Source: Deltaproteobacteria bacterium (lineage in GTDB: Bacteria > Myxococcota_C > UBA6777). From it: a stretch of 53,344 nt of DNA. Under the pieces are notes generated by a model, which worked only from the letters and a program-made list of their open reading frames with translations, ran no database searches and was not told the DNA's origin. Positions 18,135 to 34,449 of the stretch are shown one piece after another. Both the position numbers and the translations under genes were made by a program. Position 1 is the first letter of the stretch; every line of letters starts with the position of its first letter. Where the stretch lies: contig PCBK01000074.1 of assembly GCA_002731275.1 (NCBI GenBank), positions 1 through 53,344 on the forward strand, given 5' to 3'.

Positions 18135-18686
18135 ATGGACACTTTAGTTTTAAGTGTCGGTTACGAGCCAATGGACAGGATCAGCTGGCAACGTGCGATG
18201 ATGTTGTGGGCGAGTGGAAAAGTCGAGATCGTCGAAGAGTACGAAGATCGACAGATCCGCACAGTGCGCATCGATCTGCGCATGCCCTCTGTCGTACGCT
18301 TGCTCCGCTATATCCCACGTCGCAAAAGTCGCGTGAGATTCTCAAGGCATAATGTGTACGCTCGTGACAAAGGACGCTGCCAGTACTGTGGCATCAAAAT
18401 GTACCAACACGAGTCCACCTACGACCACGTCGTACCACGCTCACAAGGCGGTACGACATGTTGGGAAAACGTCGTGCTCGCGTGCTTCAACTGCAACCAG
18501 AAAAAAGCAAACCGCACACCAAAAGAAGCCCGTATGCGATTGTACAATGAGCCCGTCAGGCCCAAAACGCTCCCCGAAACGTGGCGCTACTCCTTCACCT
18601 TCCAGAAGGATATGCCGCCCTCTTGGCGACAGTACATGACCGACTTCACCTACTGGAACTCCGAGCTCGATCAAGACAACACTTGA
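18135..18686 (+). CDS. HNH endonuclease-family protein
   Basis: A 183-residue protein preceded by GGGAGGAAGAC. The N-terminal 70 residues (VLSVGYEPMDRISWQRAMML) are typical of a widespread chromosomal HNH family. The HNH zinc fold then shows CxxC at Cys82/Cys85, Asp97-His98 in STYDHVVPRSQGG, Asn112 in CWENVVLAC, and Cys117/Cys120 in ACFNCNQKK. All metal and catalytic positions appear intact. The substrate is unknown; no restriction methylase or phage gene is nearby, so a defence role is not indicated. It ends at a bidirectional terminator. Confidence 0.88.
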   Translation: MDTLVLSVGYEPMDRISWQRAMMLWASGKVEIVEEYEDRQIRTVRIDLRMPSVVRLLRYIPRRKSRVRFSRHNVYARDKGRCQYCGIKMYQHESTYDHVVPRSQGGTTCWENVVLACFNCNQKKANRTPKEARMRLYNEPVRPKTLPETWRYSFTFQKDMPPSWRQYMTDFTYWNSELDQDNT

Positions 18687-18696
18687 GAAAGTTACC

Positions 18697-18727
18697 AATG
18701 AGCCCGCACTAAGAGTGTGGGCTCATT
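18697..18727. terminator. Bidirectional terminator between HNH gene and GNAT gene
   Basis: A 14-bp stem AATGAGCCCGCACT / AGTGTGGGCTCATT with one wobble and a 3-base loop, just after the HNH stop. It overlaps the last codons of the convergent GNAT gene. The T run on the plus side is short. Confidence 0.7.
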
Positions 18728-20126
18728 GTGTTTCCAATACAAACCCCAGCTTCTTGAAGACACCACGCATCCGAAGAGGTGCGATACTCACATACTCCCC
18801 CTTCCCCCAACGTTTTTGCACCGCACTCCAAAGCTGCAGACGCTCTGCGAACGAACTGCACGCGTTCTCCGCAAAAGAGACACGCAACTCTCCGTCTGTT
18901 TTCCTACACCAAATGACATCGACGATGCGTTCCCCCCGCACACACATGACACCTTGATGTTCATCACTGCGCAACCACTCTGTGACCTTGGAGAGATTGG
19001 CGTGCCCCATCAGCACGGATAATGACAGAGCCTGCTCTTCATCAACTGGACACAGAAAGACACCTTCGACAGGGTCATCAGGTAGCACAAGTCGCTCACT
19101 CGAATAGACGTAACGCACATCTTCGGAGTGTGTCGTATCCTTTGCTGGTGGACAGGGAAGATACATTTCAGCGTCTGCTCCCCAAAGCACATGACATTGG
19201 ATCCGCTGATCACCACACCAAAGGTCTTTGTAAGCCCCTGCCCCAGTCAGAAGATCTATTGCCCTCGCTCCTTGGCCGATCACATCCTCAAAGGCCAACT
19301 CCATCACCGCGATCCCTGGCGAAAGGATGCGATACAGATCGTCAAAAGCGGTTTTGTAACAAAAGTATGTGCCATCTTTCAAAAACCCCATCTGGCAAGC
19401 AACAGGTCGTCCATCAATGTACAATGTGTAGGAACGAAAATGACCACATTCCGCTGTTTGCTGGCACAGCTTGCGAAAAAAACTACGACTCAGCTCCGGT
19501 GCCTTCCAGGAACGATTGAGGATACTCATATACTCACGAACAAAGGTCTTTGCCTGCGCAGGTGTTGTCGAAGAAGAGAGCTCCCATTGACCGTACTCAT
19601 CAAGTCTTCGACGGACTTTCTTTCGCTTCCTTCGTGCCGCGCCACCTCTCGCGTGTAGATATGCCTCCCACCCCTCTTTAGGACGCGCCCACGCCTCACG
19701 TTCCCCCTCAACGATCTGCCAGGGACTCTCAGAAAAAGAACGCAATGCCCGTAACTCTAAACCCTCCGCATCAAGATGAGAGAGCACGACGCGCTGACAA
19801 TCATCGAGTGAGGAGGCCAAAGCAAAGACCAGTTCCCACACGATCTCCATCGAAATCTCGGATACAAATTGATGGCGATGAGAGTATATGTTCCCCACAA
19901 ATGACAACGTCCCATCTCGAAGCATCAACGGCACAATCGCACGTCCTGGAGAGTCAACGACCAACAACATCAGCTCCGCTCCCGCCCCAAAACAAGACCA
20001 CCACAGTCGATACCAGGACGGCGAAAGATAGGGATCAGCCGATTGCTTTTGAAGTTCAAGCCACACCCCCGACCATCTTTCGAATGCCTCTACATCATGT
20101 TCAACCACAAAAGAATACCCGCTCAC
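18723..20126 (-). CDS. CelD/BcsL-type GNAT acetyltransferase
   Basis: A 467-residue cytosolic protein that starts at GTG, sharing the GTGA overlap with the stop of the nitrilase-like gene; GGAGGAGG precedes it. The middle (about 155-330) shows the GNAT-6/CelD pattern: a basic helix ARRKRKKVRRRL, YTLYIDGRPVACQMGFLKD, YKTAFDDLYRILSPG and the end block IDLLTGAGAYKDLW. Such proteins transfer acyl groups onto sugars, lipids or peptides, often in surface-polymer synthesis. A further C-terminal region of about 110 residues may be a second, degenerate acyltransferase fold (VLMGHANLSKVTEWL; MRGVFKKLGFVL). It is translationally coupled to its neighbour. Confidence 0.75.
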   Translation of the reverse strand: MSGYSFVVEHDVEAFERWSGVWLELQKQSADPYLSPSWYRLWWSCFGAGAELMLLVVDSPGRAIVPLMLRDGTLSFVGNIYSHRHQFVSEISMEIVWELVFALASSLDDCQRVVLSHLDAEGLELRALRSFSESPWQIVEGEREAWARPKEGWEAYLHARGGAARRKRKKVRRRLDEYGQWELSSSTTPAQAKTFVREYMSILNRSWKAPELSRSFFRKLCQQTAECGHFRSYTLYIDGRPVACQMGFLKDGTYFCYKTAFDDLYRILSPGIAVMELAFEDVIGQGARAIDLLTGAGAYKDLWCGDQRIQCHVLWGADAEMYLPCPPAKDTTHSEDVRYVYSSERLVLPDDPVEGVFLCPVDEEQALSLSVLMGHANLSKVTEWLRSDEHQGVMCVRGERIVDVIWCRKTDGELRVSFAENACSSFAERLQLWSAVQKRWGKGEYVSIAPLRMRGVFKKLGFVLETQ

Positions 20127-20917
20127 TCGCCTCCTCCTTTTGACGATACAATCGAAGCATACAGTGCTTCTCTTCGATCTTTGAGGGGATGGACGCGTTT
20201 TGTCCGGTACTTAAACCGCGCCTGACGAAGATCGAGCTCTTCACTCTCCCCCCGCAGAACACCAAAAGGACTCGACATCGACGAAAGTCCTTCCCCACCC
20301 CATGTACACACAGAGAACACACCGCTGAAGTAACCATGAGACTGACACATCGACAAAACAGAATTGTGTGTCGAAGTATACGGCAACACAGGCCCTACCC
20401 CCAGACAAAACAAGACCTCCGCCTCTTCTAGCACAAGCAGACGGGGGAGTTCGGGAAAACACACGTCATAACCGGACATCACGCCGATGCAGACATCACC
20501 AAGTGACACCAGACCAGGCCTGTCACCACGCTGCATCCACTCCTCCTCACATTGTCGCAGATGTGTTCGCACATAACGAACAGGCTTGCTCTCCGGAGAC
20601 ATCACAAGAATCGTGTCGGCGACTCCTTCCTTCGATGTGGTGTACAAGCCACCGATCAAGACGACTTGATGTGTATCGACAAATGCCTGCCATGCTCTCT
20701 CCCACAATACAGATGATTCCATCTTATCGAGACACTCACGCTCGCATGAGAGCTGCTCAGAAGATGAAACCAAGACGTTACAGGCTGCAGGTAACACCAA
20801 ACACTCCGCGCCTTCATCAACAGCTTTGAGACAACGTGCGAGAAGCCGATCCAAACGCTGCGTTCGTTCATCATAGGTGTAGGTAATCGATGTGACCTTC
20901 CAAAGTTGGCGAAGCAA
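20123..20917 (-). CDS. Nitrilase-superfamily protein lacking catalytic residues
   Basis: A 264-residue reading from TTG 20917, preceded by AGAGGAG at 8 bases. An upstream ATG at 20953 lies inside the terminator hairpin and is unlikely. The carbon-nitrogen hydrolase fold is recognisable (CLVLPAACNVLV; VRYVRTHLRQ; GVMSGYDVCFPELPRLLVLE). All three catalytic positions are changed: Glu to Ala44 (LPA where LPE is expected), Lys to Arg117 (RTHL for KTHL), and Cys to Gly149 (GYD for CYD). A Cys is found four residues later (Cys153). It is therefore a pseudoenzyme by sequence, or uses different chemistry. The stop overlaps the GNAT start, so the two are made together. Confidence 0.72.
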   Translation of the reverse strand: MLRQLWKVTSITYTYDERTQRLDRLLARCLKAVDEGAECLVLPAACNVLVSSSEQLSCERECLDKMESSVLWERAWQAFVDTHQVVLIGGLYTTSKEGVADTILVMSPESKPVRYVRTHLRQCEEEWMQRGDRPGLVSLGDVCIGVMSGYDVCFPELPRLLVLEEAEVLFCLGVGPVLPYTSTHNSVLSMCQSHGYFSGVFSVCTWGGEGLSSMSSPFGVLRGESEELDLRQARFKYRTKRVHPLKDRREALYASIVSSKGGGE

Positions 20918-20936
20918 GTGATTGTCTCCTCTCAAA

Positions 20937-20973
20937 ACAAAAAAGGCGGTCAATATTGACCGCCTTTTTTGTT
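20937..20973 (-). terminator. Perfect-stem terminator-like hairpin upstream of nitrilase-like gene
   Basis: ACAAAAAAGGCGGTCA / TGACCGCCTTTTTTGT pairs perfectly around ATAT. It has a T run on either strand. It terminates the lipoprotein gene at 21007 and ends only about 20 bases before the nitrilase-like TTG start, leaving almost no room for a separate promoter and leader. Confidence 0.85.
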
Positions 20974-21006
20974 GGCTTCACATTCTACAATTCCCAAAAA
21001 TAGGGA

Positions 21007-21846
21007 TTATTCTTTCGTGCAGTATGTACCTGCGCATTTTTTGAGCGCAGCAGAGATCGCACAATCGTCGTCGCTCGAACAAGCAGGGTAGCATTTGCCA
21101 CTGCCACATGCAGCGCCAGTTCCACAGTCGGAATCTTGGGTACAATTTTTGGTGCAGACTTTGAATCCAAACCCACCAGAGTCCAAGCAGCTCGCACCAG
21201 TCAAACACTCATCGTCAGAGGCACAGAAGTCACCCAACGGCTTTTTCTCCCAGCAGTGGCCTTCTGTACCGCAGACTTCCATGGTCGCATAGACTGTACA
21301 CTCAGCCTTTTGACTACAAGTCGGCATACAGTAATAGGGTCCAGCACCGTGGAGCTTATCACAAACACCGTTACATCCAGCATTGTCAGTGCATTCGTTG
21401 GAGCAGATCTTCCCTTTCTTCAACGCACCGGAGAAGTCTGTACAGACGATCTTGCCTTTGCCTGTGTCCTTACAATCAGCGACTGTCGTACAAGGCTCAC
21501 CGAGAAGTTTGGTTCCAGTAGAGCCCCCTTCGTCTTTGACAACGGGATCATCTTTCACGACGGGATCGTCTTTCACGACGGGATCATCTTTCACGACGGG
21601 ATCGTCTTTCACGACGGGATCGTCTTTCACGACAGGATCGTCTTTTCCACCACCGTCGTTTTCAACAGGCTCAGTCGCCGCTTCTTGGTTACCACCGACT
21701 TTACAGCCTCCCTGAAAACACACAAAACCGGTCTTACAGTCCGCGTCTTTTGTACACTCCGAGGGCGTCCCACAAGCTGTAAACACGCTCGGGAACATCA
21801 GCAACGCCAACGCCCCCACACACAACACACTTACCATTCGCTTCAT
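21007..21846 (-). CDS. Cys-rich lipoprotein with DDPVVK repeats
   Basis: A 279-residue lipoprotein starting at 21846 after GGAGG. The lipobox region is PSVFTACG. Cysteine modules of the CTKDADCKTGFVCFQGGC kind occur once near the N-terminus and about four times in the C-terminal half, with spacing like small disulfide-rich domains of myxobacterial surface proteins. Between them is a linker of six DDPVVK hexapeptides encoded by 18-base tandem repeats. The linker is acidic and likely extended. Function is unknown; surface display is inferred. It is monocistronic, with the perfect hairpin just after the stop. Confidence 0.82.
   Translation of the reverse strand: MKRMVSVLCVGALALLMFPSVFTACGTPSECTKDADCKTGFVCFQGGCKVGGNQEAATEPVENDGGGKDDPVVKDDPVVKDDPVVKDDPVVKDDPVVKDDPVVKDEGGSTGTKLLGEPCTTVADCKDTGKGKIVCTDFSGALKKGKICSNECTDNAGCNGVCDKLHGAGPYYCMPTCSQKAECTVYATMEVCGTEGHCWEKKPLGDFCASDDECLTGASCLDSGGFGFKVCTKNCTQDSDCGTGAACGSGKCYPACSSDDDCAISAALKKCAGTYCTKE
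21540..21650. repeat. 18-base coding tandem repeat (DDPVVK x6)
   Basis: Six units of GGGATCRTCTTTCACGAC (plus-strand view) inside the lipoprotein gene. They differ only at a few third positions, so the copy number may vary by slippage without shifting frame. Confidence 0.85.
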
Positions 21847-22097
21847 AGTATCAAACCTCCGTTTGGTGGATGACATCTTCGGTTACAAAACCCTTTGTGT
21901 ATGTCACCACAGAGAAATATCAGTGTTTCATTGTAGCAGATTTTGCTTCACACAGGCGCATCCATTTCATCATACACCCATGGGAATGTAAAAGAATATA
22001 CCATTTCAACGTTCGAAAATACTTGCTCTATGTCATAAATGTGGAACGATAGCCAGACATAAAACGAGGACTCTTCAAATGTTGGAGAACGTCGACG
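21847..22097. other. Intergenic region, AT-rich
   Basis: About 250 bases upstream of the lipoprotein gene and downstream of the DHQS-II-like gene. It is AT-rich, and the lipoprotein promoter is expected here. No terminator was recognised for the minus-strand operon ending at 22098. Confidence 0.4.
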
Positions 22098-23282
22098 CTA
22101 CCGCTCGATGATCTGCTCGTCGACCGGGAGTCCAACGTGTCTTCCGGGTTTGGTGATGTAGCAAAGAACAGGATCACCCGGTTGGAACGTCGTCACGCTC
22201 ACAGGCTCTCCATCTCCACCATAGACCCGTACATGCCAATCATCTTGAACGATCGCATTCACGACAACATCACCACACTTGGCTTCGAGCAAGAGTAACG
22301 GCCGCACCTCTGTCTTGATCCGTCCGACAGTCACTTCTCTTGCCGCACCATTCACATTTACACAAAAGACCTTCGAGCCGGCTTTCAGCTCGGAGAGATA
22401 ATGAGTCTTGTTGTTTGGACACCAAACATAGGAATGAATCGCGCCAGCATTCACCCGAAAGGGCCGAAGATCCATGTAAGGGAGGGGGTGTGTTTCAGAG
22501 CACGCGAGCAGCCCACCAGAGGACGTCGAACCGACAAGCATTCCTTCTTCTCGTGTCATGAGAGAGGTGACATCGATACAAGCACGATGTCCCATCCCGA
22601 TGTGTTCGATGCGCGTGATCTCGCCGACTTGGATATCGAGTTGTGCGGTCATGCGCTTTTGCTGACTCTCACCAAGCGCGATGATCTCTTCGATATCCTG
22701 TGTGCGAAGCAGCGAACCATCGGCACCATGTTCGACAACACCATAAGAGACCTCGGCAGCTTCGGCCGTCTCAACGAGTTTGAGGACTTGCGTTGGAGAG
22801 TCTTGCAATTCAGCAACGACGAGTTCGAGGGGGATGTTGGTTTCATCGATAAGATCGACGATCAGAAAGTCGTGAGAGGCACCGAGACGAGATGATTCTT
22901 CGAGAGTGTCAGCATCATGGATGGTGTAAAAGAGCGCGGTCAACACGCCTTCCCGTTGTGCGCGAATATCGAGCAAAAGATCGTGTTGATCACTAAAGGC
23001 GACATCACCCTCTGAGAGATGTTGAAGGTCTTCTTGTTGTTGGACTGCGAGTGCAAGCCCGATCCCAAGGGAACGTTGACGGAAATCCTTCGCCGCAGAG
23101 GCCTGGATCAACCAATGTGTAAAGCCCTGGTGTTGGGCTGCTTGCAACAGCTTTTGTGGGATTGAGGATTCTCGGGCATCAAACCAGTATTTGCGTGTAC
23201 GGAGCGCAGGTGCCCTGACAGGCACACCGCGTCGATCGAGTTCTTCATGGACATTGGCAACACTCACCCTGTCATCTCCCAT
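22098..23282 (-). CDS. 3-dehydroquinate synthase II / GriH-like enzyme
   Basis: A 394-residue protein of the archaeal-type DHQ synthase family (MJ1249, GriH). In archaea it oxidatively deaminates and cyclises 2-amino-3,7-dideoxyheptulosonate to dehydroquinate. GriH-type members make 3-amino-4-hydroxybenzoate. Visible family blocks: KYWFDARESSIPQKLLQAAQ, FLIVDLIDETNIPLELVVAE, VGEITRIEHIGMGHRACIDV, GMLVGSTSSGGLLACSETHP, FRVNAGAIHSYVWCP and a C-terminal beta domain (KPGRHVGLP). There is an N-terminal extension of about 29 residues. The gene overlaps the aldolase by 19 bases; GTG 23267 (GTGA overlap, GGGAG upstream) is an equally good start. Sequence alone does not tell which of the two products is made. 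Confidence 0.85.
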   Translation of the reverse strand: MGDDRVSVANVHEELDRRGVPVRAPALRTRKYWFDARESSIPQKLLQAAQHQGFTHWLIQASAAKDFRQRSLGIGLALAVQQQEDLQHLSEGDVAFSDQHDLLLDIRAQREGVLTALFYTIHDADTLEESSRLGASHDFLIVDLIDETNIPLELVVAELQDSPTQVLKLVETAEAAEVSYGVVEHGADGSLLRTQDIEEIIALGESQQKRMTAQLDIQVGEITRIEHIGMGHRACIDVTSLMTREEGMLVGSTSSGGLLACSETHPLPYMDLRPFRVNAGAIHSYVWCPNNKTHYLSELKAGSKVFCVNVNGAAREVTVGRIKTEVRPLLLLEAKCGDVVVNAIVQDDWHVRVYGGDGEPVSVTTFQPGDPVLCYITKPGRHVGLPVDEQIIER

Positions 23283-24091
23283 CTCTTGGTTTGTTGTAAA
23301 AGAGCAACAGCTTCTTGCACACCGAAGTCTTTGTGGACGATATTTTCGAGCGCCTCAGCGATCAAGTCTGCGTGTTCACTTTGAAAGACATTACGTCCAA
23401 AGCACACACCAGCAGCACCGGCTTTCAACGCATCGTGCACCATTTTGAACATCTTGAAGTCAGAGTCCACCTGGGGACCACCTGCGATGAGAACGGGGGC
23501 ATCGACATATTCGAGGATGGAGCCAAAACTCTCAACATCGCCGGTGTAGTAAGTTTTGATGATATCGACGCCCATCTCCATCGCCACACGGATTGCGTGT
23601 CCGATGAGTTGTGGGTCATATGGATTGTCAATCCCTTCTCCTCGGGGATACATCATCCCCAGCAAGGGCATTCCCCATGCCTGACAGGCTTGGGAGACCT
23701 TGCCCAAATCCGTCAACATCTGGTTCTCCGTCCGTGCGCCCAGGTTAATATGGACAGAGACAGCATCTGCGCCGAGTCGTATGGCCTGCTCGACACTACA
23801 CACGAGACGTTTATCGTTGGTGTCATGTGCCAGAGATGTAGAGCCTGAGAGATGGACGATCAGACCGAGATGTTTGGTCTCTTTCAGCAGCGGCGCGAGA
23901 CGAGAGACCATGCCCTGGTGGACGACGACAGCGTTGAGCGCATCTTCACCGATATCACGAAGACGCTGGGAGATACTCCCCAGCCCACGAATGGGTCCAT
24001 CAGAGAAGCCGTGATCCATCGCGAGGATAAACATCCTTCGGGACTTCGAATTGATGATCCGCCTCATGCGGATTTCTTTACCAGAAGACAT
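23264..24091 (-). CDS. DhnA-type aldolase: ADH synthase / GriI-like
   Basis: A 275-residue class I aldolase preceded by a full AAAGGAGGTGAGAT site. Family members condense aspartate semialdehyde with a sugar phosphate: MJ0400 gives the heptulosonate precursor of dehydroquinate, and GriI gives the C7 precursor of 3-amino-4-hydroxybenzoate from DHAP. Visible residues: AMDHGFSDGP (Asp26-His27), MMYPRGEG (Tyr148), DIIKTYYTGD (Lys179, Schiff-base lysine), then APVLIAGGPQ and GVCFGRNVFQ for phosphate binding. Length is normal. It overlaps the DHQS-II-like gene and lies 26 bases after the ligase gene, so the three are one operon. Confidence 0.88.
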   Translation of the reverse strand: MSSGKEIRMRRIINSKSRRMFILAMDHGFSDGPIRGLGSISQRLRDIGEDALNAVVVHQGMVSRLAPLLKETKHLGLIVHLSGSTSLAHDTNDKRLVCSVEQAIRLGADAVSVHINLGARTENQMLTDLGKVSQACQAWGMPLLGMMYPRGEGIDNPYDPQLIGHAIRVAMEMGVDIIKTYYTGDVESFGSILEYVDAPVLIAGGPQVDSDFKMFKMVHDALKAGAAGVCFGRNVFQSEHADLIAEALENIVHKDFGVQEAVALLQQTKRWEMTG

Positions 24092-24117
24092 ATCTCACCT
24101 CCTTTGCTGCGATACCA

Positions 24118-25590
24118 TCACACTTTTAGACGACTCATGTCGAGCTTGCCAACAGAGCTACGTGGTAGTGTTGTGTAAAATTGCCAGCGCTGTGGGATCT
24201 TGTGTCCAGCAAGTTTTCCCTGACAAAAAGAGACGAGCTCTTCAGTCGTAAATGTTTTGGACGCGACGATGCAGGCCTTCACGAGCTCACCTGAGACTTC
24301 ATCTTCGACACCAACAACGACGACCTCCTGGACACCATCGAGCGTCTCGAGTACTGCTTCAACTTCTTGGGGGACGATCTTTTTCCCCGCGAAGTTGATC
24401 ACATTTTTCTTCCGCCCACTCAAGAACAAACGCCCTTCTTCATCAAGGCGACCAAGGTCTCCAGTAAAACACAAGCCAGCCCGGAAGGCTTTCGCAGAGA
24501 GCGCCGGATCACGATAGTAGCCATGACTGGAGACCTGCTCTCCTCCAACGACAACTTCCCCGACTTCTCCTTGTGGGACAGGATTCCCATCGTCATCCAG
24601 GATGTGGATATCGACACCGTGAAGTGGTTTCCCCAGACAAGTACTCGGCACCCCCGGCTTACGACGTATCTCCAGCGAGATCGCGCCACCTTCAGAGCTG
24701 CCGTAGTTTTGGCCAATCACGACATCGAATGTATCGTAAAATCGGCGAACAGTTCGTGCAGACAGTGGAGCTGCTGCTGAGATACAGTATCGCAGAGAGG
24801 AGAAGTCCACAGATTGACCACTCAAATCGATACGGGTGAGCAAGTCAAACATAAAGGGAACAGCGGGAAACAACGTGATCGCTTGTGTTTGTAAAGCGCG
24901 CAAGACAGAGCGAGCATGAAACGACTGAAGCAAGACGAGAGTACATCCAGTCGTCAACATCGGCATAAAACAGAAATCAAAACCATAGCTGTGGTAGAGG
25001 GGGATGACGGCGAGGCTTTTATCATCTTCGGTCAGCTGGAGTGTTGAGACGACGTGTTGTCCCTCCGCCGCCATATTCAGCGCAGTCAAGAGCACACCTT
25101 TGGGCGTCCCTGTTGAGCCTGAGGTGTACTTCATCATGACGACATCATCGAGACCTTCAGGAAGATCATCTCCTTCACAACGACCTAACAAAAGCGTTCC
25201 ATGACCGAGAGATTGGTATGTCCGCTGTACAAAAGGTGCGGTGTGCTCTTCTCGTAAGAGAAAGAAAGAGGCGCCACTGTCCGAGAGAATCGTCTCTATT
25301 TCAGGGGGAGAGTATGATGTATCGATGGGGATCGCGATGGCTTTCAACCTCGACAAGGCGAGAAAACACTCGACAAATGCCACGACGTTGCCCAAGCAGA
25401 CAGCGACACGGTCTTGTGCCAGTACCCCCTCTGAGGCGAGTAATTGGGTCAACACATCGACACGCGAAGAGAGCGATGTGAAGGTTAACGCAAGGTTTTC
25501 CCCTGGCGAGACAACTGCAATCTGCTCGGGCCTCTCCTGGCACTGTTTTTTGAACAACTCAGCGAAGGTATACGCACTGTCTGCTTCCAT
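24118..25590 (-). CDS. AMP-forming acyl/aryl ligase
   Basis: A 490-residue member of the ANL superfamily. Core motifs are intact: phosphate loop YTSGSTGTPKG (155-165), IPLYHSYGFDF, A5-type NYGSSEGG, A7-type FTGDLGRLDEEG with hinge SGRKKNVI, and the C-terminal lysine in LPRSSVGKLD (Lys482). It has no carrier or thioesterase domain attached. It heads the minus-strand operon with the GriI/GriH-like genes, and a separate carrier protein is divergently transcribed next to it. The simplest reading is activation of the aryl or acyl acid made by the operon and loading onto that carrier. A CoA ligase function is the alternative. Confidence 0.85.
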   Translation of the reverse strand: MEADSAYTFAELFKKQCQERPEQIAVVSPGENLALTFTSLSSRVDVLTQLLASEGVLAQDRVAVCLGNVVAFVECFLALSRLKAIAIPIDTSYSPPEIETILSDSGASFFLLREEHTAPFVQRTYQSLGHGTLLLGRCEGDDLPEGLDDVVMMKYTSGSTGTPKGVLLTALNMAAEGQHVVSTLQLTEDDKSLAVIPLYHSYGFDFCFMPMLTTGCTLVLLQSFHARSVLRALQTQAITLFPAVPFMFDLLTRIDLSGQSVDFSSLRYCISAAAPLSARTVRRFYDTFDVVIGQNYGSSEGGAISLEIRRKPGVPSTCLGKPLHGVDIHILDDDGNPVPQGEVGEVVVGGEQVSSHGYYRDPALSAKAFRAGLCFTGDLGRLDEEGRLFLSGRKKNVINFAGKKIVPQEVEAVLETLDGVQEVVVVGVEDEVSGELVKACIVASKTFTTEELVSFCQGKLAGHKIPQRWQFYTTLPRSSVGKLDMSRLKV

Positions 25591-25719
25591 CCTGTCTCTT
25601 CCCTTGTATCCGCATCGAGATCAGCCAACATAATCATTATCGAGATCATACCCAGAATGTTGTCTCCTCCACTCACTTTCTGCCGACGACAACAAAATGT
25701 CGAAAACTGAAAGCAATGA

Positions 25720-25750
25720 TTGATCCCGTTACGCTCTCATGGTATACAAT
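25720..25750 (+). promoter_or_regulatory. Sigma70-like promoter for the carrier-protein operon
   Basis: TTGATC at 25720-25725 and TATACA at 25743-25748 are separated by 17 bases. The -10 lies within an inverted repeat CTCAT-GGTATACA-ATGAG (25736-25753), a possible operator. Expected transcription start is near 25755, which supports translation from 25800 rather than upstream codons. Confidence 0.5.
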
Positions 25751-25799
25751 GAGCACGTCCAAGACAAAAACAAATGAAACTGACTCACCCTTACTTATC

Positions 25800-26066
25800 A
25801 TGGTTGAACACATGGATCGAGATCAAACTATCCAAAAGATCAAGGAAATCATCGCAGAGACGTCCAAACTAGGCATCAACGCTGACGAAGTCGGCGATGA
25901 GCCCAATGTTGTCACACGGTTGGGACTCCAATCTACACAGATTCTGGAGATTACTGTTGAGCTCGAAAACGAATTTGGGATCGAGTTCGAGGACACCGAG
26001 ATTACAGAAGAGCTCTGGACCTCCGTCGGAAGCCTTGCAGACGGTATCACAGCCAAGAAAGGATAG
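25800..26066 (+). CDS. Acyl carrier protein (stand-alone)
   Basis: An 88-residue acidic helical protein. The phosphopantetheine site is RLGLQSTQILEIT, with Ser45. The usual Asp before Ser is Gln here, which is uncommon. Helix II (ILEITVELENEFGIEFED) is typical. The start is unclear: no good ribosome site exists, 25812 is possible, and in-frame codons at 25716 and 25749 fall at or before the predicted promoter start. It is first in a four-gene plus-strand operon (6-base gap to the next gene) and divergent from the ligase, which is its likely loading enzyme. Confidence 0.82.
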   Translation: MVEHMDRDQTIQKIKEIIAETSKLGINADEVGDEPNVVTRLGLQSTQILEITVELENEFGIEFEDTEITEELWTSVGSLADGITAKKG

Positions 26067-26072
26067 ACTTCG

Positions 26073-26408
26073 ATGAGCGAAAATCAGACAGAGAACACAA
26101 ACGAAGCCACCAAGGACGAGCAACCCAAAGACTTCATCTCCGCGCTCGCCGCAAACCGATGCCCATTGTGCCACACAGATCTCATCGCCAAAAAAGAAGA
26201 TCAGTGGGTCCGCAGCTATAACAGCCAAGAGTTGTACCTGCCGGATGTCGAGTCCATGCAATGCCCCAACTGCAACACAGTAATCTACCCACAAGAGTCT
26301 CTCGACTACTTCGACAAAGCGCGCAATGGCGATATCCCCGATCTCAAAACACGTCCCTATACCCCCGAAGAATACGATGATGATGAGGATGAAGAGGAAG
26401 ACGCATAG
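26073..26408 (+). CDS. Small acidic zinc-ribbon protein
   Basis: A 111-residue protein preceded by AGAAAGGA. Two CxxC knuckles, Cys30-Pro-Leu-Cys33 and Cys64-Pro-Asn-Cys67, are 30 residues apart, forming a zinc ribbon. The end is strongly acidic (DDDEDEEEDA). No enzyme motif is visible. The fold would suit a protein- or nucleic-acid-binding adaptor. It lies between the carrier-protein gene and a second Cys-knuckle protein. I do not recognise a named family. Confidence 0.72.
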   Translation: MSENQTENTNEATKDEQPKDFISALAANRCPLCHTDLIAKKEDQWVRSYNSQELYLPDVESMQCPNCNTVIYPQESLDYFDKARNGDIPDLKTRPYTPEEYDDDEDEEEDA

Positions 26409-26462
26409 TTTTCCCTCTTGTTCAATACATCCCTCACGTCACCCCTTGCCACTGAGTGTTCG

Positions 26463-26990
26463 ATGAAATCATCAGCCTCCTCCACACAAACATCTCCACC
26501 CCCGACAGATACAACACCACGAGAATACGATCTTCCGAAAGCCAGAGACCTCTTAGGGATTGGACGTAAACGTCTCATCAAGTGGTCCAAAGATGGACGA
26601 CTACCACACACACGCGATGGGATGAGCTTTACCTTTCATCGCAAAGATCTCATCCACTTCGCGCTCACACGCTGCTTACAATGTGGTGAATTACACACCA
26701 CCATCTCCACAGGTATCTATTTCTGTACCCACTGCGCAAGCTCCTTCTCGACAGACACCAAACACGTAGAGCTAGACGTTATGTGCTCCGGTATGGAGAG
26801 AACGCGGCAACAGATGTTTATGATGCGCTTACAAGACAAACAGGTGAGTGACGAAGAAGCCGTCGACGCGCTCACAGAGCGATACCAAATCAGTCGATTA
26901 CTAGCTTACCAACGCTGGTTTCGTTTTTTCCACCAAAAAGAAGGTACCCATATCATGGGATTTGGTGAGGGAGCCCAAGAAGATGAGTGA
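26463..26990 (+). CDS. MerR/excisionase-like HTH plus zinc-ribbon protein
   Basis: A 175-residue protein. The start at 26463 is preferred over TTG 26418, with a weak GAGTG upstream. Residues 22-67 look like a winged-helix/MerR-type DNA-binding unit (YDLPKARDLLGIGRKRLIKW, then FHRKDLIHFA). A zinc ribbon follows with Cys71/Cys74 and Cys88/Cys91. The C-terminal part is helical (EEAVDALTERYQISRLLAYQ). It may regulate this locus. The stop overlaps the next start by 8 bases, so the two proteins are translationally coupled. Confidence 0.68.
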   Translation: MKSSASSTQTSPPPTDTTPREYDLPKARDLLGIGRKRLIKWSKDGRLPHTRDGMSFTFHRKDLIHFALTRCLQCGELHTTISTGIYFCTHCASSFSTDTKHVELDVMCSGMERTRQQMFMMRLQDKQVSDEEAVDALTERYQISRLLAYQRWFRFFHQKEGTHIMGFGEGAQEDE

Positions 26991-28182
26991 CACCAACCTC
27001 TCCCCGCAAACGATCGAAATCCTCAAGCAAACGCCTCCTTTTGACATGCTCACAGATGAACTTTGGAACACCCTTCTTCCAACGCTCCGTCTGCGCACTT
27101 ACGATCCAGGCATCTATATCCTCAAACAACGCAAAACCAAGCACAAGTACCTCTACATCGTGATAAAAGGCTCTGTCCGCCTCATCGACAACACAACACA
27201 TAGCCTGGGGACAGAGTGCGAACCAGGCCATATATTCGGCGCAGTTGGCCTCATAGAAGGAGGTCCCCTGCCATATGGTGCCCTCGCAACAGACACGACT
27301 GAATGTCTGCTCCTCCCAGCACAGACATTCCATGAACTTTGCGAAAAAGACAAACTCTTCGCGCAAGCATTCGAAACCAATCTCGAAACCAACCATGATC
27401 TACCAAGTACCGAAGGTTGGGTGGGTGGAGTGCAAGGAAGCCCTTTCACTTTCATCCACCAAGTACAAGGTTCAGCCCCTTGGGGTTCGATGCTCGACGC
27501 AGGTACAGGACAATCTTCGCTAGGTTGGATCACACAGCTCGAAACGAGTCATTGGACCGCCATCACAAAAGATGAACCGAGGGCCGATACACTCAAAGCC
27601 GTATACGCCGACAAAATCCGCGAACAAGATCGCATTATCATTGGAGACTGGCGTGACAGCGAGTTGTGTAAAGATGAAGTCTACGACACCGTCCTCGCAG
27701 ATTACCTCCTCGGCGCAATCGAACGCTTCGCCCCTCACTTTCAGGATCAACTCTTCGAAAGACTCCGTCCCCACGTAGGCAAGCGACTCTACTTTATTGG
27801 GATCGAACCCATCCTCGAACCCGCTCCGACCATCGGTGGGCAAATCATCCAGGAGATCCATCGGCTGCGCGACCTCTGCGCGACCATGTCCTATGAACAC
27901 CCCTACAGAGAATACCCACTCCAATGGGTTCTCCGTAATCTCCCTCGTGCGGGTTTTCAAATCGAAGGCTTTCAAACCTTCCCCAAGTTGTTTGGGCTGC
28001 GCTACTTCCACGATATGCTCGATGGATGTGTTCAAGCACTCCCCAAATTTAGAGACGCAGAACTCGCTGCCTCAGTCGCAAAAGCCATCGCCCGCTACAG
28101 AAAAGAAGCCCTCAGCACTTCCTACCTCCACTTTGGCGTCCAAATCAGCAAAGACTACGTTGTCGTCGCCAAACCTGTTTGA
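26983..28182 (+). CDS. Cyclic-nucleotide-binding-like domain fused to a class I methyltransferase
   Basis: A 399-residue protein; ATG 26983 lies in ATGAGTGA, overlapping the previous stop. Residues 15-130 form a CNB/CAP_ED-like beta barrel (YILKQRKTKHKYLYIVIKGS). The phosphate-binding cassette is FGAVGLIEGGPLPYGA (85-100), lacking the Glu and Arg that bind cAMP, so the ligand may differ or be absent. Residues 168-340 are a SAM-dependent methyltransferase: motif I MLDAGTGQSSLG, then DRIIIGDWRDS and YDTVLADYLLGAIERFAP. No DNA-binding domain follows. It may modify the product or carrier of the neighbouring pathway; that is inference. Confidence 0.78.
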   Translation: MSDTNLSPQTIEILKQTPPFDMLTDELWNTLLPTLRLRTYDPGIYILKQRKTKHKYLYIVIKGSVRLIDNTTHSLGTECEPGHIFGAVGLIEGGPLPYGALATDTTECLLLPAQTFHELCEKDKLFAQAFETNLETNHDLPSTEGWVGGVQGSPFTFIHQVQGSAPWGSMLDAGTGQSSLGWITQLETSHWTAITKDEPRADTLKAVYADKIREQDRIIIGDWRDSELCKDEVYDTVLADYLLGAIERFAPHFQDQLFERLRPHVGKRLYFIGIEPILEPAPTIGGQIIQEIHRLRDLCATMSYEHPYREYPLQWVLRNLPRAGFQIEGFQTFPKLFGLRYFHDMLDGCVQALPKFRDAELAASVAKAIARYRKEALSTSYLHFGVQISKDYVVVAKPV

Positions 28183-28204
28183 TCAACCCACATACACAGA
28201 TATT

Positions 28205-29330
28205 TTGCTTGAAATCAGATCCGGCGGACGTTGCACCAGCGGGCGGCCGCTGGACCCCGGTTGAACCCCTTCGGGGTTGTGGCTCTACCGTCTACAACGC
28301 TCTTCTTGGAGAGGCTTTTCTTCGTGGCTTATTTGCTTCGTGCGCTTGCAATCATCCGCCTCAACAAACTCTCCACCCTGTCGCTTCGCGACTTCCCTCC
28401 TCTCAAGCCTTTCGACAGGAGGGACCAACCAGCCGATATGCACGGGGTTTCGCTAGAAATCTGATCCGGCAGACGTTGCACTTGCGTCCAAAGCAAAGCT
28501 GTCCTATGAGGACGTTTGCTCCGTGCGCTTTGCAACATATGCCTCAACAAACCTCACAATCCCCCAACCCCTTTCTCTCCAGCCTTGGGAGAAAAAGGGG
28601 GGTTTTAGCCGATATATACGGGGGATACTTGAATGTTGATCCGGCGGACGTTGCACTTGTGTCTCCGCAAACTCCCCTGATTCCACCAAATCATCCCCTT
28701 CTTTCTGGCGGATATAGCAAGGCCATATCCTTTTAAGGCTCGATTGCTTGCGGATTTGCAGTGGGTTTTTTGCGTCTTCACTTGCAATCATCCGCCTCAA
28801 CAAACTCTCCACCCTGTCGCTTCGCGACATCCCTCCTCTCAACCCTTTCGAGAGGAGGGACCATTTACCCGATATATACGAAGATTGAGGTCGGACACAA
28901 GGCCCGACCCTACTGAGATCCGACCGATATATACCGGCTTATCGGCCACCCAGATCTACTAACATCCATCCGATATACACGGGGTTATAGATCGAACTCC
29001 AGGGGCGTTTATGCTGATAGCCGTCTGATATACGCGGGTTTTTCGTTTGTATCGCGATATATCGTTTGATGTGCATCGCTCCCCTTGCCAACGTAGTTGA
29101 ATAGCAGGGGGAGCTGGACGACCGAAGGTCGGACTGAGGGGGTCTTGCATCGCTCCCCTTGTCAACGAAGTTGAACAGCAGGGGGATTTGGCCGACGAAG
29201 TCTGTCTGAGGGGGTCTTGCAGCCTTTTCTGTATGCATCGCTCCCCTTATCGACCAAAGCAAAGCGCAGGTCGAACAGGGGAAACTGGCGGGTGAAGCCC
29301 GCCTAATAGGGTCTTGCGCTCTCCCCTAAA
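28205..29330. repeat. REP-like hairpin repeat field
   Basis: About 1.1 kb with no gene. Modules: GATCCGGCRGACGTTGCA at 28218, 28462 and 28636; hairpins CCAGCG/CGCTGG (28236-28253) and AACCCC-TTC-GGGGTT (28264-28278); the GTCGC-TTC-GCGAC hairpin plus 10-bp CCCTCCTCTC stem at 28380-28413 and again at 28816-28859; an imperfect stem CCCCTTTCTCTCC...GAGAAAAAGGGG near 28569-28601. Three tandem GCATCGCTCCCCTT modules start near 29073, 29147 and 29235. A CCGATATAYACGG motif recurs six times between modules. The left window edge holds the same elements. Confidence 0.85.
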
Positions 29331-29332
29331 CG

Positions 29333-29370
29333 AAAAAAGGGAGCCAACAGTTTTGTTGACTCCCTTTTTT
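29333..29370 (-). terminator. Rho-independent terminator of the Met/Gln-rich protein gene
   Basis: A 17-bp stem AAAAAAGGGAGCCAACA / TGTTGACTCCCTTTTTT with one mismatch and a 4-base loop. On the minus strand it reads into a T run about 30 bases after the stop at 29400. It marks the border with the repeat field. Confidence 0.85.
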
Positions 29371-29399
29371 CAGAGGGGGGTATGTGAATCACATGGTCC

Positions 29400-30404
29400 T
29401 TAGCGGACGGGAATGCGGTTCATCATGGGGTTTTGTTGGGTGAAGTTGTACATGCTGGAGAGTTGTTGCAGCATTTGGAACATCTGCTGCATGATTTGCA
29501 TTTGGGACTGTGCTTGTTGGGCATTTGCAGGCATTTGTGCCAGTTGGTTGCCAGTCACAGTTTGTGGTTGCAAGAAGTTATTGATAGGCGCGAGGTGGTT
29601 TGCGTTACCTTGCGCGACCTGACCGGGGGTGGGCTTGGCTCCACCTTTGGTGATTGCATCGAAGTTTCCACCAGCTGAGAGTGTGGGACCTTCAATTTTC
29701 ATCGCGCTACCGCCTGATTTCCAGGCAGCGTTTCCTTTTGAGTAGTTGCTCATTGTCGCAACATCACCACCAGTCGTGACAACCTGGAAGGAGTCGATGT
29801 TGTTGCCTTTGGAGTTGGCTTTCATGTTGAGCTGTGTTCCATCGGGAAGAGTAATGGAGCCACCTTTTTGGAGATCTTTCAGGGGCACCTTCATGAGAGC
29901 TTTTTTGCCCTTGTCACCTTGTGCGTGGATCTCGATTTGGGGAGGAGCGGAGCAACGGTTGACGTCGACGGTGAAGAAGTTTCCTTCAGAACCTTTGACT
30001 TGGAGTTGACCGTGTCCTTTGTCAGTGATGGTGGTATCACCAACGTTCAATGTGTTTTCAACGCCTTTTTTGAAACCACAGTGTTTCAAGTCAGTGGAGC
30101 TGATGTTCATTTGGGGGGATGGTGGGAGCATACCAGTGGTTCCCATCATACCGAAGCCACCTTGCTCAGGTCCGTTTGTTCCCATTTTGGGAGCGTTTGC
30201 TTCAAAGAAGGGTTGTCCGAAGCCCATGACAAAGAAACCAGCTTGGGAGGGGTTTTGCAGTGCTGAAGTGCCTGCGGGAGGCTCTTCGCCGGCTTTGGCG
30301 CTTTGGTTTTGTGGAGCTGGGGGTACAACAGGAGCAGGAGAACTTGAAATACCGTGTCCAGCGTGGAATTGGGCTTGCATCATGGAAGTATAGAAAAATT
30401 TCAT
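29400..30404 (-). CDS. Hypothetical Gly/Pro/Met/Gln-rich protein
   Basis: A 334-residue protein preceded by AAGGAGATGACCC. There is no signal peptide. Residues 1-110 are low in order (Pro, Gly, Ala, Gln, Met). Residues about 115-235 look like a compact beta domain (GDTTITDKGHGQLQVKG; GGSITLPDGTQLNMKA; FQVVTTGGDVATMSN). The last 50 are a Gln/Met-rich helix (QMQIMQQMFQMLQQLSSMYN). I do not recognise the family. The beta part is loosely like domains found in some type III-secreted proteins, but this is an impression only. It could be an exported or structural protein using a non-classical route. Confidence 0.65.
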   Translation of the reverse strand: MKFFYTSMMQAQFHAGHGISSSPAPVVPPAPQNQSAKAGEEPPAGTSALQNPSQAGFFVMGFGQPFFEANAPKMGTNGPEQGGFGMMGTTGMLPPSPQMNISSTDLKHCGFKKGVENTLNVGDTTITDKGHGQLQVKGSEGNFFTVDVNRCSAPPQIEIHAQGDKGKKALMKVPLKDLQKGGSITLPDGTQLNMKANSKGNNIDSFQVVTTGGDVATMSNYSKGNAAWKSGGSAMKIEGPTLSAGGNFDAITKGGAKPTPGQVAQGNANHLAPINNFLQPQTVTGNQLAQMPANAQQAQSQMQIMQQMFQMLQQLSSMYNFTQQNPMMNRIPVR

Positions 30405-30717
30405 GGGTCATCTCCTTCGATTTGAAAGTTTGTTGTTTTGGAACAATTCAAAAATCTATGAAAAAACAAAAACAAAAATGAAATGCTTTTTGGTATCAAC
30501 TACGTCCTTAATTGATTCACTCATATTATCGGAAAACCTTCACTGCGGTTTCCCCCTTTTTGCGTTTTTTTTGAATTTATTTTTTTCATCAATCATTTCA
30601 GAACTTTGCATTGCCATTTTTGCACCCAAAAATCCACATCGCGACAAAAAACCACACCCGATCACTGCAACGATCTCCCTTTTGTTGTCTCGATCCCCTC
30701 CATCGATCTCAATCACC
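30405..30717. other. AT-rich intergenic region
   Basis: About 310 bases with long A and T runs, much more AT-rich than the neighbours. It should hold the promoter of the gene starting at 30404. Open frames here overlap real genes antisense and look spurious. Confidence 0.45.
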
Positions 30718-31752
30718 TTACACAATGAGATCTTGAAGCATTCCAAACACCCGTTTCTTTTCACATTGAAGCCAGGAGTTGTCACTAGGTTCCTCTGGCA
30801 AGCTGGCGATTCCATCGACAAGCGCAGATGTTAAGCAGTCATGACAGGACTGTAATCCACGCCGAAGAGCATCCCACTGAACAGCACGTCGATACAAAAA
30901 AGTACGATGGGTACTTTTTCCCCAAGGCACATCTCTCCCGTGTTCCAGGTGCTCTGGCCATCCATCATCCACCAATGCGCGTGAGCATATCTTCGATAAA
31001 GCCGTATACACAGAGAATCCCGGGTAGGACGCATCGAAGACATCGTACTCACACTGTCGATCGCGTAACAACGCCTCAGCCTTCAAAGACTCACCCCGCT
31101 CGTGCAGCTCGACACAAAACAACAGGGGTCCATGCCCTATGTAACATTCAGCCAGCCCCTCCAGAAGATGATCGAACCACGCAAAGATCGGCATCCCCAA
31201 AGAAGGAGGATATGCGGAGAGCTTTTGCAAAAGCGGCTCCTTGTACGCGATCTCTGTGTTGGTCATGATGTGACCCCATTCATGCGCAAGATTGACCTCC
31301 TGACGCCAACGGAGCAATGCTTTGGGCCCAGAAAAACAAGAACAAACAGCAAGAAAGGACTGTTTGCCTACCGCAATCTCCGCCTGTAATACCTTCTCAT
31401 ACTCACTGTGTCGTATGTATATATCGAGGTCGTCTTCAAGCTGAAGCAAAATCGTATCGGCTTTCAAGTTGCCAATGTGAAAGAGTTCTTCCTCCACAAA
31501 CCAAACAGGTAACCCTTCAAGACGTTGCTGCAAGAAGACTGTAGCAGGCTGCCTTCTTGAGGTCCGACAAACAAGTACGATAAGTTGGGGAGCAAAGAAC
31601 CAGAGCAGGTGAAAGGTCTCGTCCTCTTCGAGGAGCTGTCGACGAAACGTGGACAATGTGTGCTGAAGTTGGTTGTGCTGTGTTTCGTCAGTGGGATCGA
31701 GAGCACGAAGTGCAGGTAGGCGCGCAAGGAGTGAGGCGTATATGTTGTTCAT
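30718..31752 (-). CDS. Predicted zinc metallopeptidase (HExxH)
   Basis: A 344-residue protein with no signal peptide. VNLAHEWGHIMTN carries the zinc motif HExxH (His157-Glu158-His161). A third ligand is likely Glu198 or Glu202 in HLLEGLAECYIG, about 40 residues on, as in gluzincin-type peptidases. The rest is not recognised; Cys residues are scattered. It begins 2 bases after the TPR gene stop and is the last gene of the radical SAM operon. The substrate is unknown. Confidence 0.68.
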   Translation of the reverse strand: MNNIYASLLARLPALRALDPTDETQHNQLQHTLSTFRRQLLEEDETFHLLWFFAPQLIVLVCRTSRRQPATVFLQQRLEGLPVWFVEEELFHIGNLKADTILLQLEDDLDIYIRHSEYEKVLQAEIAVGKQSFLAVCSCFSGPKALLRWRQEVNLAHEWGHIMTNTEIAYKEPLLQKLSAYPPSLGMPIFAWFDHLLEGLAECYIGHGPLLFCVELHERGESLKAEALLRDRQCEYDVFDASYPGFSVYTALSKICSRALVDDGWPEHLEHGRDVPWGKSTHRTFLYRRAVQWDALRRGLQSCHDCLTSALVDGIASLPEEPSDNSWLQCEKKRVFGMLQDLIV

Positions 31753-32303: not shown

Positions 32304-32858
32304 CTATTCTCCTGTATTGGGAAGGGAACAAAACCCTTGAGATTGGATACCAAGTGAGTGATTGATCACGTTATAAAACGTTTCGACTGCAATTTGTGCA
32401 GTGAGTTCGATCATTTGAGGTTCGGAGAAGTGCTCTTTCATCTTCGCGAACAACGCATCGGAGACTTCCATACGCGCTGAAGCATCGGTAAATTGAAGAA
32501 TGAGCTGCTCTTCATCACTCCAGCTCGCTTGTTCAAGGGCATTGGGATGTGAGAGTGCCTGAATTTTATCAGAAGTCAAGCCTTCTTTTTGTGCCCTCGC
32601 GGTCCCACTATCGATGCAAAACGCACACTTGTTGAGTTGCGCCACACGCAATTTGGCGATCAACTTGAGTGGCATGGGCAGCTCGCCTTCGTGAAACTCA
32701 ATACTCCCAAGCCCAGCAACGTTGCTGACAAAAGAAGGGATTTGTGCCAACGCACGGGCTGTGTAGGGGACAGCGCCGTACGACTTCTCCATTTGACCAA
32801 ACATACGCCGCAACAATCGATCCGCGCCTTCAACTTCGACCAATTCGACTCTAGACAT
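32304..32858 (-). CDS. AhpD-like carboxymuconolactone decarboxylase-family protein
   Basis: A 184-residue helical protein with the CMD/AhpD redox motif NKCAFCIDSGTARAQKEGL (Cys78, Cys81; acid and His/Lys relay region following). Family members are disulfide reductases or peroxidase partners. The ATG overlaps the TGA of the radical SAM gene (TGATG), so it is translationally coupled; TTG 32861 is the alternative. The link to a radical SAM enzyme suggests a redox or antioxidant service role, which is inference. Confidence 0.83.
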   Translation of the reverse strand: MSRVELVEVEGADRLLRRMFGQMEKSYGAVPYTARALAQIPSFVSNVAGLGSIEFHEGELPMPLKLIAKLRVAQLNKCAFCIDSGTARAQKEGLTSDKIQALSHPNALEQASWSDEEQLILQFTDASARMEVSDALFAKMKEHFSEPQMIELTAQIAVETFYNVINHSLGIQSQGFCSLPNTGE

Positions 32859-34324
32859 CAAGCCTCCTCTACCTGACTGTTGACAGCTTCGGGACCCATC
32901 GGCTGGTTCTCTTCGGGGAAGAGGAGGTCGACCGTCCGGCCCTGCTGCTCCAACTCTTTGCGTTTTTTACGGTGCGCGCGGATGACACTGAAGAATTTGC
33001 GGGCCTGTGCGATCTTCTCGGCCTCAGGCTTCTCTTGCTCCGCGGCAAACAGTGATTGGAGGTATTTTTCGTGGGGCAGCTTGAAAAACTCCTCGTAAAA
33101 CTCTTCGATCGGAAGCTTCGTGGGGACGACAGCGTGCATCAAGTCATAATGCCCCCAATTTCTCGACGTCAGGATATTCTCTCTGTCCAACTTATCGAAC
33201 AAAGGTGTCCCTGGAAGCGGTGTCAGGATCGTGAATGTGGGGGTCGCAAGCTCTGCTTCTTCGACAAACTGCTTCACCCGCGCAAAGTCCTCATGTGTGT
33301 AGTCCGGTCGGATCACGATCTGCGCTGCGATCTTCACACCAAGGCGCTGCAACAGGCGAATGGCACCCCAGTTGTTTTTGACCGTGTTTGATTTGTTGTA
33401 GTCGCTGAGATCACCCTCCATAAAAGACTCAAATCCAACGAGCGCCAATGCCAGTCCAGCATCAGCCCATCGCTCCACAAGGTCTTGATTGCGCATGATG
33501 GAGTCCGAACGAATGTACATGAAGTAATTGCGGTCATTCAGTCCAGCTTCCTCGATTTTCTCGACCAAAAGCGTCATTCGTTTGCGATCGATCAGCGCCT
33601 CATCATCCGTGAAGAAGATATTGGGTTCATTGAGCGCAGCGATCTCCTCAACGACCTTCTCGATCTCTCGTGTGAGATACCTGCCGTCAGTGAAGGGCCA
33701 CAGAGAACAAAAGTTACATCGATATGGACACCCTACAGTACTTCGGACCGAGGCGATCGGCTTCATCAACTTGTCGTGATATTCGGAACGGTGCGCTTGT
33801 ACAAGATCACGTGCAGGGCCGGGATAGTCGTCGAGACGAGGCTGTGGTCGTGAAGCAGTCAAGACCTGACCGTCTCCTCCTGGATAAGCGATCCCTGCGA
33901 TATCATCGAGAGGCTTATCTTTCTCGATGTGCTGGATCAACTCTCGGAAGGAAAAGACGCCCTCCCCTATCACAACAGAGTCGATGGTGTCGGGACGATA
34001 AAAGTCAAAGGGGCGAAATTTCGCGTGGTGCCCGCCAACGACGACGTGTGTCTTGTCATTTTTGGCTTTGATGCGCTGGGAAAAATCGTAGACAGTCGGG
34101 ACATCTGGAGAGTCCGCGGTTAAGCCGACAACATCAGGCTTGTACTCTTCGAGAAGATCTTCGAGTTGGGTCTCACGATCCATACGAAAATCTTGAATAC
34201 GTACATCGTGTTGGTCCCTGACCGCACCGGCGAGATACTCAAGTCCGAGAGGCTCGTAAATAAAAACATCATCTCCACCGATTACATCGGGGTTTCCGGG
34301 AGGTGTAATCAACAAGACTTTCAT
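32858..34324 (-). CDS. Cobalamin-binding radical SAM enzyme
   Basis: A 488-residue protein starting at 34324 after AAAGGAGCTGAG. Residues 1-140 are a B12-binding Rossmann domain (MKVLLITPP; EPLGLEYLAGAVRD; VVVGGHHAKF; VVIGEGVFSFRELI). The radical SAM cluster motif is VGCPYRCNFCSLW (Cys199, Cys203, Cys206), followed by NIFFTDDEALIDRKRM, LALALVGFES and FTILTPLPGTPLFD. The overall pattern is close to class B methylases such as HpnR (hopanoid C-3 methylation) and to BchE. The substrate cannot be named. It leads an operon with AhpD-like, TPR and peptidase genes. Confidence 0.87.
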   Translation of the reverse strand: MKVLLITPPGNPDVIGGDDVFIYEPLGLEYLAGAVRDQHDVRIQDFRMDRETQLEDLLEEYKPDVVGLTADSPDVPTVYDFSQRIKAKNDKTHVVVGGHHAKFRPFDFYRPDTIDSVVIGEGVFSFRELIQHIEKDKPLDDIAGIAYPGGDGQVLTASRPQPRLDDYPGPARDLVQAHRSEYHDKLMKPIASVRSTVGCPYRCNFCSLWPFTDGRYLTREIEKVVEEIAALNEPNIFFTDDEALIDRKRMTLLVEKIEEAGLNDRNYFMYIRSDSIMRNQDLVERWADAGLALALVGFESFMEGDLSDYNKSNTVKNNWGAIRLLQRLGVKIAAQIVIRPDYTHEDFARVKQFVEEAELATPTFTILTPLPGTPLFDKLDRENILTSRNWGHYDLMHAVVPTKLPIEEFYEEFFKLPHEKYLQSLFAAEQEKPEAEKIAQARKFFSVIRAHRKKRKELEQQGRTVDLLFPEENQPMGPEAVNSQVEEA

Positions 34325-34449
34325 CTCAGCTCCTTTCAAAAGGCCCACATCATTGGAAGGGTTTCCAGATCGCATTGTATACCATCGGCAAAACTGCCGA
34401 CGATGTTGTCAACAACTTCCGATGAAAGTGAAAGTATAGGCGAATATCG

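Follow-up and report, generated by a model that had tools for sequence, protein, structure and literature searches.

A carrier-linked GriI/GriH-like gene locus in a Myxococcota_C genome, with a candidate role in making and tethering an aminohydroxybenzoate

A compact locus of seven genes, in which a GriI/GriH-like pair of C7 enzymes (an aldolase and a DHQS-II-like synthase) lies beside an AMP-forming ligase and a small carrier protein, occupies positions 22098-28182 of a contig from a Deltaproteobacteria bacterium (GTDB lineage Myxococcota_C; UBA6777; assembly GCA_002731275.1, contig PCBK01000074.1). The window analysed here is this one contig, of 53,344 nucleotides, of a host genome of 10.75 Mb, and five genomes of the phylum (G000-G004) were compared. 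The list of open reading frames and profile searches confirmed all seven genes where a first-pass annotation had placed them and in the families it had named, together with its layout of a ligase/aldolase/DHQS-II operon divergent from a carrier operon. The features of the locus are the following:

22098..23282, minus strand: DHQS-II-like (GriH-like) synthase, with QDDWH at residues 346-350 (PF01959, tree, residues, AlphaFold2)
23264..24091, minus strand: DeoC/LacD-type class I aldolase, ADH-synthase/GriI-like (TIGR01949, MJ0400 alignment, tree)
24118..25590, minus strand: AMP-forming acyl/aryl ligase, proposed to activate an acid and load the carrier (PF00501, PF13193)
25591..25799, no strand: intergenic region between the divergent ligase and carrier operons, probably a two-way promoter region (judged from the gene arrangement)
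25800..26066, plus strand: discrete acyl/aryl carrier protein (ACP) (PF00550, alignment with the carriers of G003, G004 and locus L052)
26073..26408, plus strand: YgiT/MqsA-like zinc ribbon protein, CxxC...CxxC, without a DNA-binding domain (TIGR03831, alignment)
26418..26990, plus strand: HTH_17 protein with CxxC/CxxC, a probable zinc-dependent regulator (PF12728, alignment)
26983..28182, plus strand: cyclic nucleotide-binding (CNB) fold joined to a class I methyltransferase-like protein, accessory (PF00027, LDAGTG motif, alignment, paralogues)

The genes of the two C7 enzymes overlap by 19 bp. The aldolase scores 312 bits against TIGR01949 (cut-off 299) and keeps the catalytic residues, its D26, Y148 and K179 aligning with D33, Y153 and K184 of MJ0400, and in the tree it falls outside the MJ0400/shikimate clade (support 99/97). 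The DHQS-II-like protein matches PF01959 with E=1e-102. In a tree of 84 rows, the proteins from bacteria most of which have no aroB come together in a single shikimate clade (support 100/100), whereas those of the window and of G003 belong to a separate clade of 47 rows (99/99). All 13 shikimate-type sequences carry QNAET at the site where the window protein reads QDDWH. Since the pattern used to retrieve loci overlaps this motif, the comparison of signatures free of bias is that of four plasmid loci only, three with QDDWH and one with QNDWH; diagnostic columns outside the pattern agree, such as N154 to L or I and V270 to M from shikimate-type to divergent proteins. Against NF041224, the profile of BagC/FevH 3-amino-4-hydroxybenzoate (3,4-AHBA) synthases, the protein reaches 255 bits, below the curated cut-off of 750, and no relative of the family was found by sequence in the PDB or in a search of viral contigs. 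An AlphaFold2 model built from 43 sequences (mean pLDDT 86) predicts a (beta/alpha) barrel for residues 28-212, which matches triosephosphate isomerase and phosphoribosylanthranilate isomerase (Z ~16, 2.4-2.6 A), a likeness that by itself says nothing on function. The modelled C-terminal part, which holds QDDWH, is beta-rich; residues ~213-394 were barely covered in the fold search, so that no claim is made on it.

The ligase consists of an AMP-binding and a C-terminal domain (PF00501, PF13193), and its nearest PDB match is a feruloyl-CoA synthetase. The ACP exceeds the cut-off of PF00550 (PP-binding), with the phosphopantetheine serine in LGLQS at residue 45 counted from a start at 25800; judged from its relatives, the better start is ~25800 or 25812. 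This serine is kept in the four carriers aligned (window, G003, G004 and L052).

The whole set of genes is found in the same order in G003 (identities of 78% for the aldolase, 77% for the ACP, 66% for the DHQS-II-like protein, 64% for the zinc-ribbon protein and 57% for the ligase), whereas in G004 the ACP, both zinc-ribbon proteins and the ligase (51%) stand together and no CNB-methyltransferase was detected. Searches of G001 and G002 for the DHQS-II-like protein, the aldolase and the YgiT-type protein found none of them. Outside the lineage, a single run of genes in locus L052 of the bacterium Zod_Metabat.896 (contig C106 of genome G060) joins a ligase 40% identical to that of the window to a radical-SAM/B12 protein, a carrier protein and a DHQS-II of the divergent type; unlike in the window, the radical-SAM gene lies inside the run, no zinc-ribbon or CNB-methyltransferase homologue was found, and the contig stops after the DHQS-II gene. 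The three layouts indicate that the association of a ligase, an ACP and a C7 enzyme recurs, which is not the case for the CNB-methyltransferase, and the gene arrangement is not due to chance. The check for co-conservation in relatives proposed at first pass has thus come out positive for the ligase and the carrier, which are kept together in G003 and G004 and linked again in L052.

The GriI/GriH pair makes and uses 3,4-AHBA with an AMP ligase (PMC10179220), as does the ClxE/ClxB pair with AMP ligases (PMC12118335), and by analogy with both systems aspartate semialdehyde and dihydroxyacetone phosphate would probably be turned into 3,4-AHBA here. As in the case of GriI, the aldolase would condense L-aspartate semialdehyde with a C3 phosphate, for instance dihydroxyacetone phosphate, and the DHQS-II-like enzyme, to judge by its clade and signature, would close and aromatise the ring of the C7 product, giving 3-amino-4-hydroxybenzoate or an isomer close to it. 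The AMP ligase, whose gene is linked and co-conserved, would then adenylate the acid and load the discrete carrier. Finally, the tethered acid may be modified or passed on, possibly by a FemAB-like acyltransferase and a nearby radical-SAM/B12 enzyme (see below), with the HTH/zinc-ribbon protein as a probable regulator. In all, it seems rather likely that the locus makes a small aminohydroxybenzoate (3-amino-4-hydroxybenzoate or an isomer) and tethers it on a discrete carrier. An aminohydroxybenzoate held on a small carrier, in a window where no large assembly-line enzyme was seen, would suggest a small-molecule pathway rather than ordinary amino-acid synthesis. Such a locus would place 3,4-AHBA-type chemistry in a rarely sampled lineage with very large genomes (five members compared), and its compact gene set would lend itself to in vitro work on the purpose of a tethered aminohydroxyaryl unit.

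Several points weigh against this interpretation. The aldolase gene of G004 lies on a different contig from the ligase and the ACP, with a different neighbour, and no DHQS-II was detected in that genome, although the aldolase gene ends 190 bases from the end of its contig, so that the DHQS-II gene may fall in the gap. The trees include neither archaeal DHQS-II nor characterised GriH or GriI sequences, and most of the comparison loci were retrieved by a pattern that partly overlaps the QDDWH signature. The substrate of the ligase is not readable from its sequence, the chemistry of the locus is inferred, and the steps after carrier loading are speculative. Part of this would fit a composite locus, in which the product of the C7 pair, 3,4-AHBA or a relative, stays free while the ligase and the ACP serve another acid, such as a fatty acid: the ligase broadly resembles acyl-CoA ligases, the G004 aldolase stands apart, and flanking genes share the presence pattern of the cluster, co-occurrence over five genomes being weak statistics. 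However, the ligase, aldolase and DHQS-II-like genes form one operon in both G000 and G003, and the distant L052 again shows a link of the ligase, the ACP and a DHQS-II, which makes such a mixture unlikely. An even smaller chance is given to a route like that of closoxazole, with the ligase joining 3,4-AHBA units directly through an amide or ester and the ACP as an incidental neighbour. AMP ligases beside GriI/GriH-type pairs do such joining in the closoxazole clusters (PMC12118335), and a layout of PAAK-like ligase and amidohydrolase occurs in the Bacillota relatives L022 and L029, but the window has a single ligase of a different subfamily and no condensing amidohydrolase among the locus genes scanned, and among the small proteins of the set the ACP is the best conserved.

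On the other hand, the first-pass annotation had offered the archaeal-type entry to the shikimate pathway, borrowed for aromatic amino acids, as its alternative. On such a reading the aldolase and the DHQS-II-like enzyme would yield 3-dehydroquinate, and the ligase and carrier would be neighbours without a link to them. Both families are named after that route, and the aldolase passes the ADH-synthase cut-off. Yet the same genome has a canonical aroB (contig C36) and two DAHP synthases, both C7 enzymes fall outside the shikimate clades, the signature residues of the DHQS-II-like protein differ from the shikimate type, and G001 and G002 manage without the pair. With its aroB and DAHP synthases, clade placements, residues and aldolase tree all pointing the same way, the shikimate alternative is rejected as most improbable. 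In the case of G060, where no aroB was detected, there are two DHQS-IIs: the copy on contig C226 lies beside a shikimate-type aldolase and belongs to the shikimate clade, whereas the ligase-linked copy (C106; L052, L134) lies beside the AMP ligase, the radical-SAM/B12 protein and the ACP and belongs to the divergent clade. The contrast of QNAET with QDDWH, together with this genome that holds both enzyme types, offers a simple way to separate the DHQS-IIs of the shikimate pathway from those of secondary metabolism, which database names currently merge. An archaeal-type placement, the lack of aroB and the lack of co-conservation had been set out beforehand as grounds for abandoning the tethered aminohydroxyaryl unit, and none of the three was found. 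That proposal stands strengthened by the placements of the C7 enzymes, by the presence of aroB and DAHP synthases at other places in the genome and by the co-conservation of ligase and carrier, and what it loses is the CNB-methyltransferase as a core part, which is missing from G004 and has a degenerate CNB site.

The same annotation went too far in calling the cluster of a type not recognised, since 3,4-AHBA clusters with AMP ligases (grixazone, manumycin type, closoxazole) are already known. What is new here is that a discrete ligase and carrier occur with zinc-ribbon partners and in this host lineage, the window genes scanned including no megasynthase. In manumycin-type pathways, 3,4-AHBA is loaded on a carrier. 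For asukamycin and colabomycin, of this type, it is the activated starter unit (PMC4147253); the proposed use of an activated 3,4-AHBA-type acid is shared with the window, but those clusters have large polyketide machinery, whereas no ketosynthase or polyketide synthase module was seen among the window genes scanned. The grixazone cluster of Streptomyces griseus (GriI/GriH/GriC/GriD; PMC10179220) likewise pairs an aldolase with a DHQS-II-like enzyme, next to an AMP-binding enzyme whose substrate is 3,4-AHBA, although GriC/GriD reduce the acid to an aldehyde, no dedicated carrier is known for that step, and there are no zinc-ribbon proteins. The closoxazole clusters clx/pfx of Clostridium cavendishii and Pyxidicoccus fallax (PMC12118335) are also small and free of a megasynthase, with a ClxE/ClxB-type pair and AMP ligase, but there the AMP ligases are two, a condensing amidohydrolase is present and no carrier has been described, in contrast to the one ligase of another subfamily and the ACP found here. 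A plasmid cluster of Sinorhizobium medicae (L015) has an AMP-binding protein, a radical-SAM/B12 protein, DHQS-II and aldolase adjacent to each other; unlike the window, it adds an adenylation-domain protein, an HpaB-like hydroxylase, a SagB-type dehydrogenase and a phosphopantetheinyl transferase, and its sequences are very divergent. Among the other loci compared, L022 (6602-11881), L029 and related loci show that in many Bacillota the divergent DHQS-II and its aldolase are accompanied by AMP ligases of PAAK-like type, by an amidohydrolase and by TPR proteins, a layout that resembles the closoxazole clusters. The actinomycete loci L069 (13395-15809) and L070 (13362-14783), which hold the divergent DHQS-II, have a carrier domain N-terminal in a larger protein, which makes another carrier-linked variant.

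Three further genes lie close to the seven:

20123..20953, minus strand: CN_hydrolase (nitrilase-fold) homologue with its triad lost, continuing the DHQS-II operon (PF00795, alignment, synteny)
18723..20126, minus strand: FemAB-like GNAT (Acetyltransf_6), a possible acyl/aryl transferase at the operon end (PF13480, G003 alignment)
32858..34375, minus strand: B12-binding radical SAM protein near the cluster, a possible partner of unproven membership (PF02310, PF04055)

The first two, missed at first pass, continue the DHQS-II operon of the window, as in G003, where the genes of a CN_hydrolase and then of a FemAB-like GNAT come after DHQS-II and their ends overlap. All three residues of the nitrilase triad, Glu, Lys and Cys, are replaced in the window homologue (VLPAACN, YVRTH, VMSGYD) and intact in its syntenic counterpart of G003 (VLPELCN, YRKIH, LMICYD); from these residues, the window protein is probably inactive as an amidase and likely a pseudoenzyme. 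Close orthologues of the radical-SAM/B12 protein (68-70%) occur only in the cluster-bearing G003 and G004, and radical-SAM/B12 genes also adjoin DHQS-II in L052 and L015. However, the gene at 29400-30404, also in the flanking block, is present in the same genomes, so that co-occurrence within the lineage proves little; conservation of the block was rejected as proof of pathway membership, since both block genes tested share the pattern of the cluster. A more daring proposal, which is tentative and on the whole doubtful, is that of a megasynthase-free route with 3,4-AHBA or an isomer on a stand-alone carrier, processing by the radical-SAM/B12 enzyme, release by the FemAB-like protein and a zinc-ribbon regulator, the set of ligase, radical-SAM/B12 protein, ACP and DHQS-II being an undescribed class of clusters across unrelated phyla.

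Among the proteins of the carrier operon, the YgiT-type one lies above the TIGR03831 cut-off and occurs in G000, G003 and G004 only (of the five lineage genomes), and the HTH_17 protein, with two CxxC pairs, just exceeds the cut-off of PF12728. An identity of the zinc ribbon as an MqsA antitoxin was rejected (20 bits against a cut-off of 61.8, and no MqsR-like neighbour among the genes scanned). The start of the CNB-methyltransferase was revised from 26962 to 26983, judged from its relatives. Its methyltransferase half has no Pfam match of its own and is assigned by the LDAGTG motif and by stand-alone homologues, which match Methyltransf_23 weakly (best E=3e-5) and whose gene contexts gave no functional hint. 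The phosphate-binding cassette of CNB domains makes its usual cyclic-nucleotide contacts through FGE...PRxA. In the alignment of the window and G003 proteins, FGA or FGV replaces FGE and PY replaces PR, and without these contacts cyclic-nucleotide control is unlikely. An AlphaFold2 model of this protein, built on a two-sequence alignment, was discarded (pLDDT 37).

As for the surroundings, a search of 17700-31000 against Rfam gave no match, and PHROGs gave weak matches only, to families of unknown function. Between the DHQS-II and CN_hydrolase genes sits a putative cysteine-rich lipoprotein with a VVKDDP repeat tract (21007-21876); in G003 and G004, its homologues occupy other places close to the locus. 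The gap of ~1.2 kb between the CNB-methyltransferase gene and the next operon (28182-29400) is filled by direct repeats that have diverged, among them repeats of 100 nt (at 91%), of 51 nt and of 39 nt, and its counterpart in G003 is ~120 bp long. Finally, positions 14783-17701 encode a protein of 972 amino acids with several Ig-like domains of the ASH/HYDIN/Cep192 type, families best known from cilia and centrosomes.

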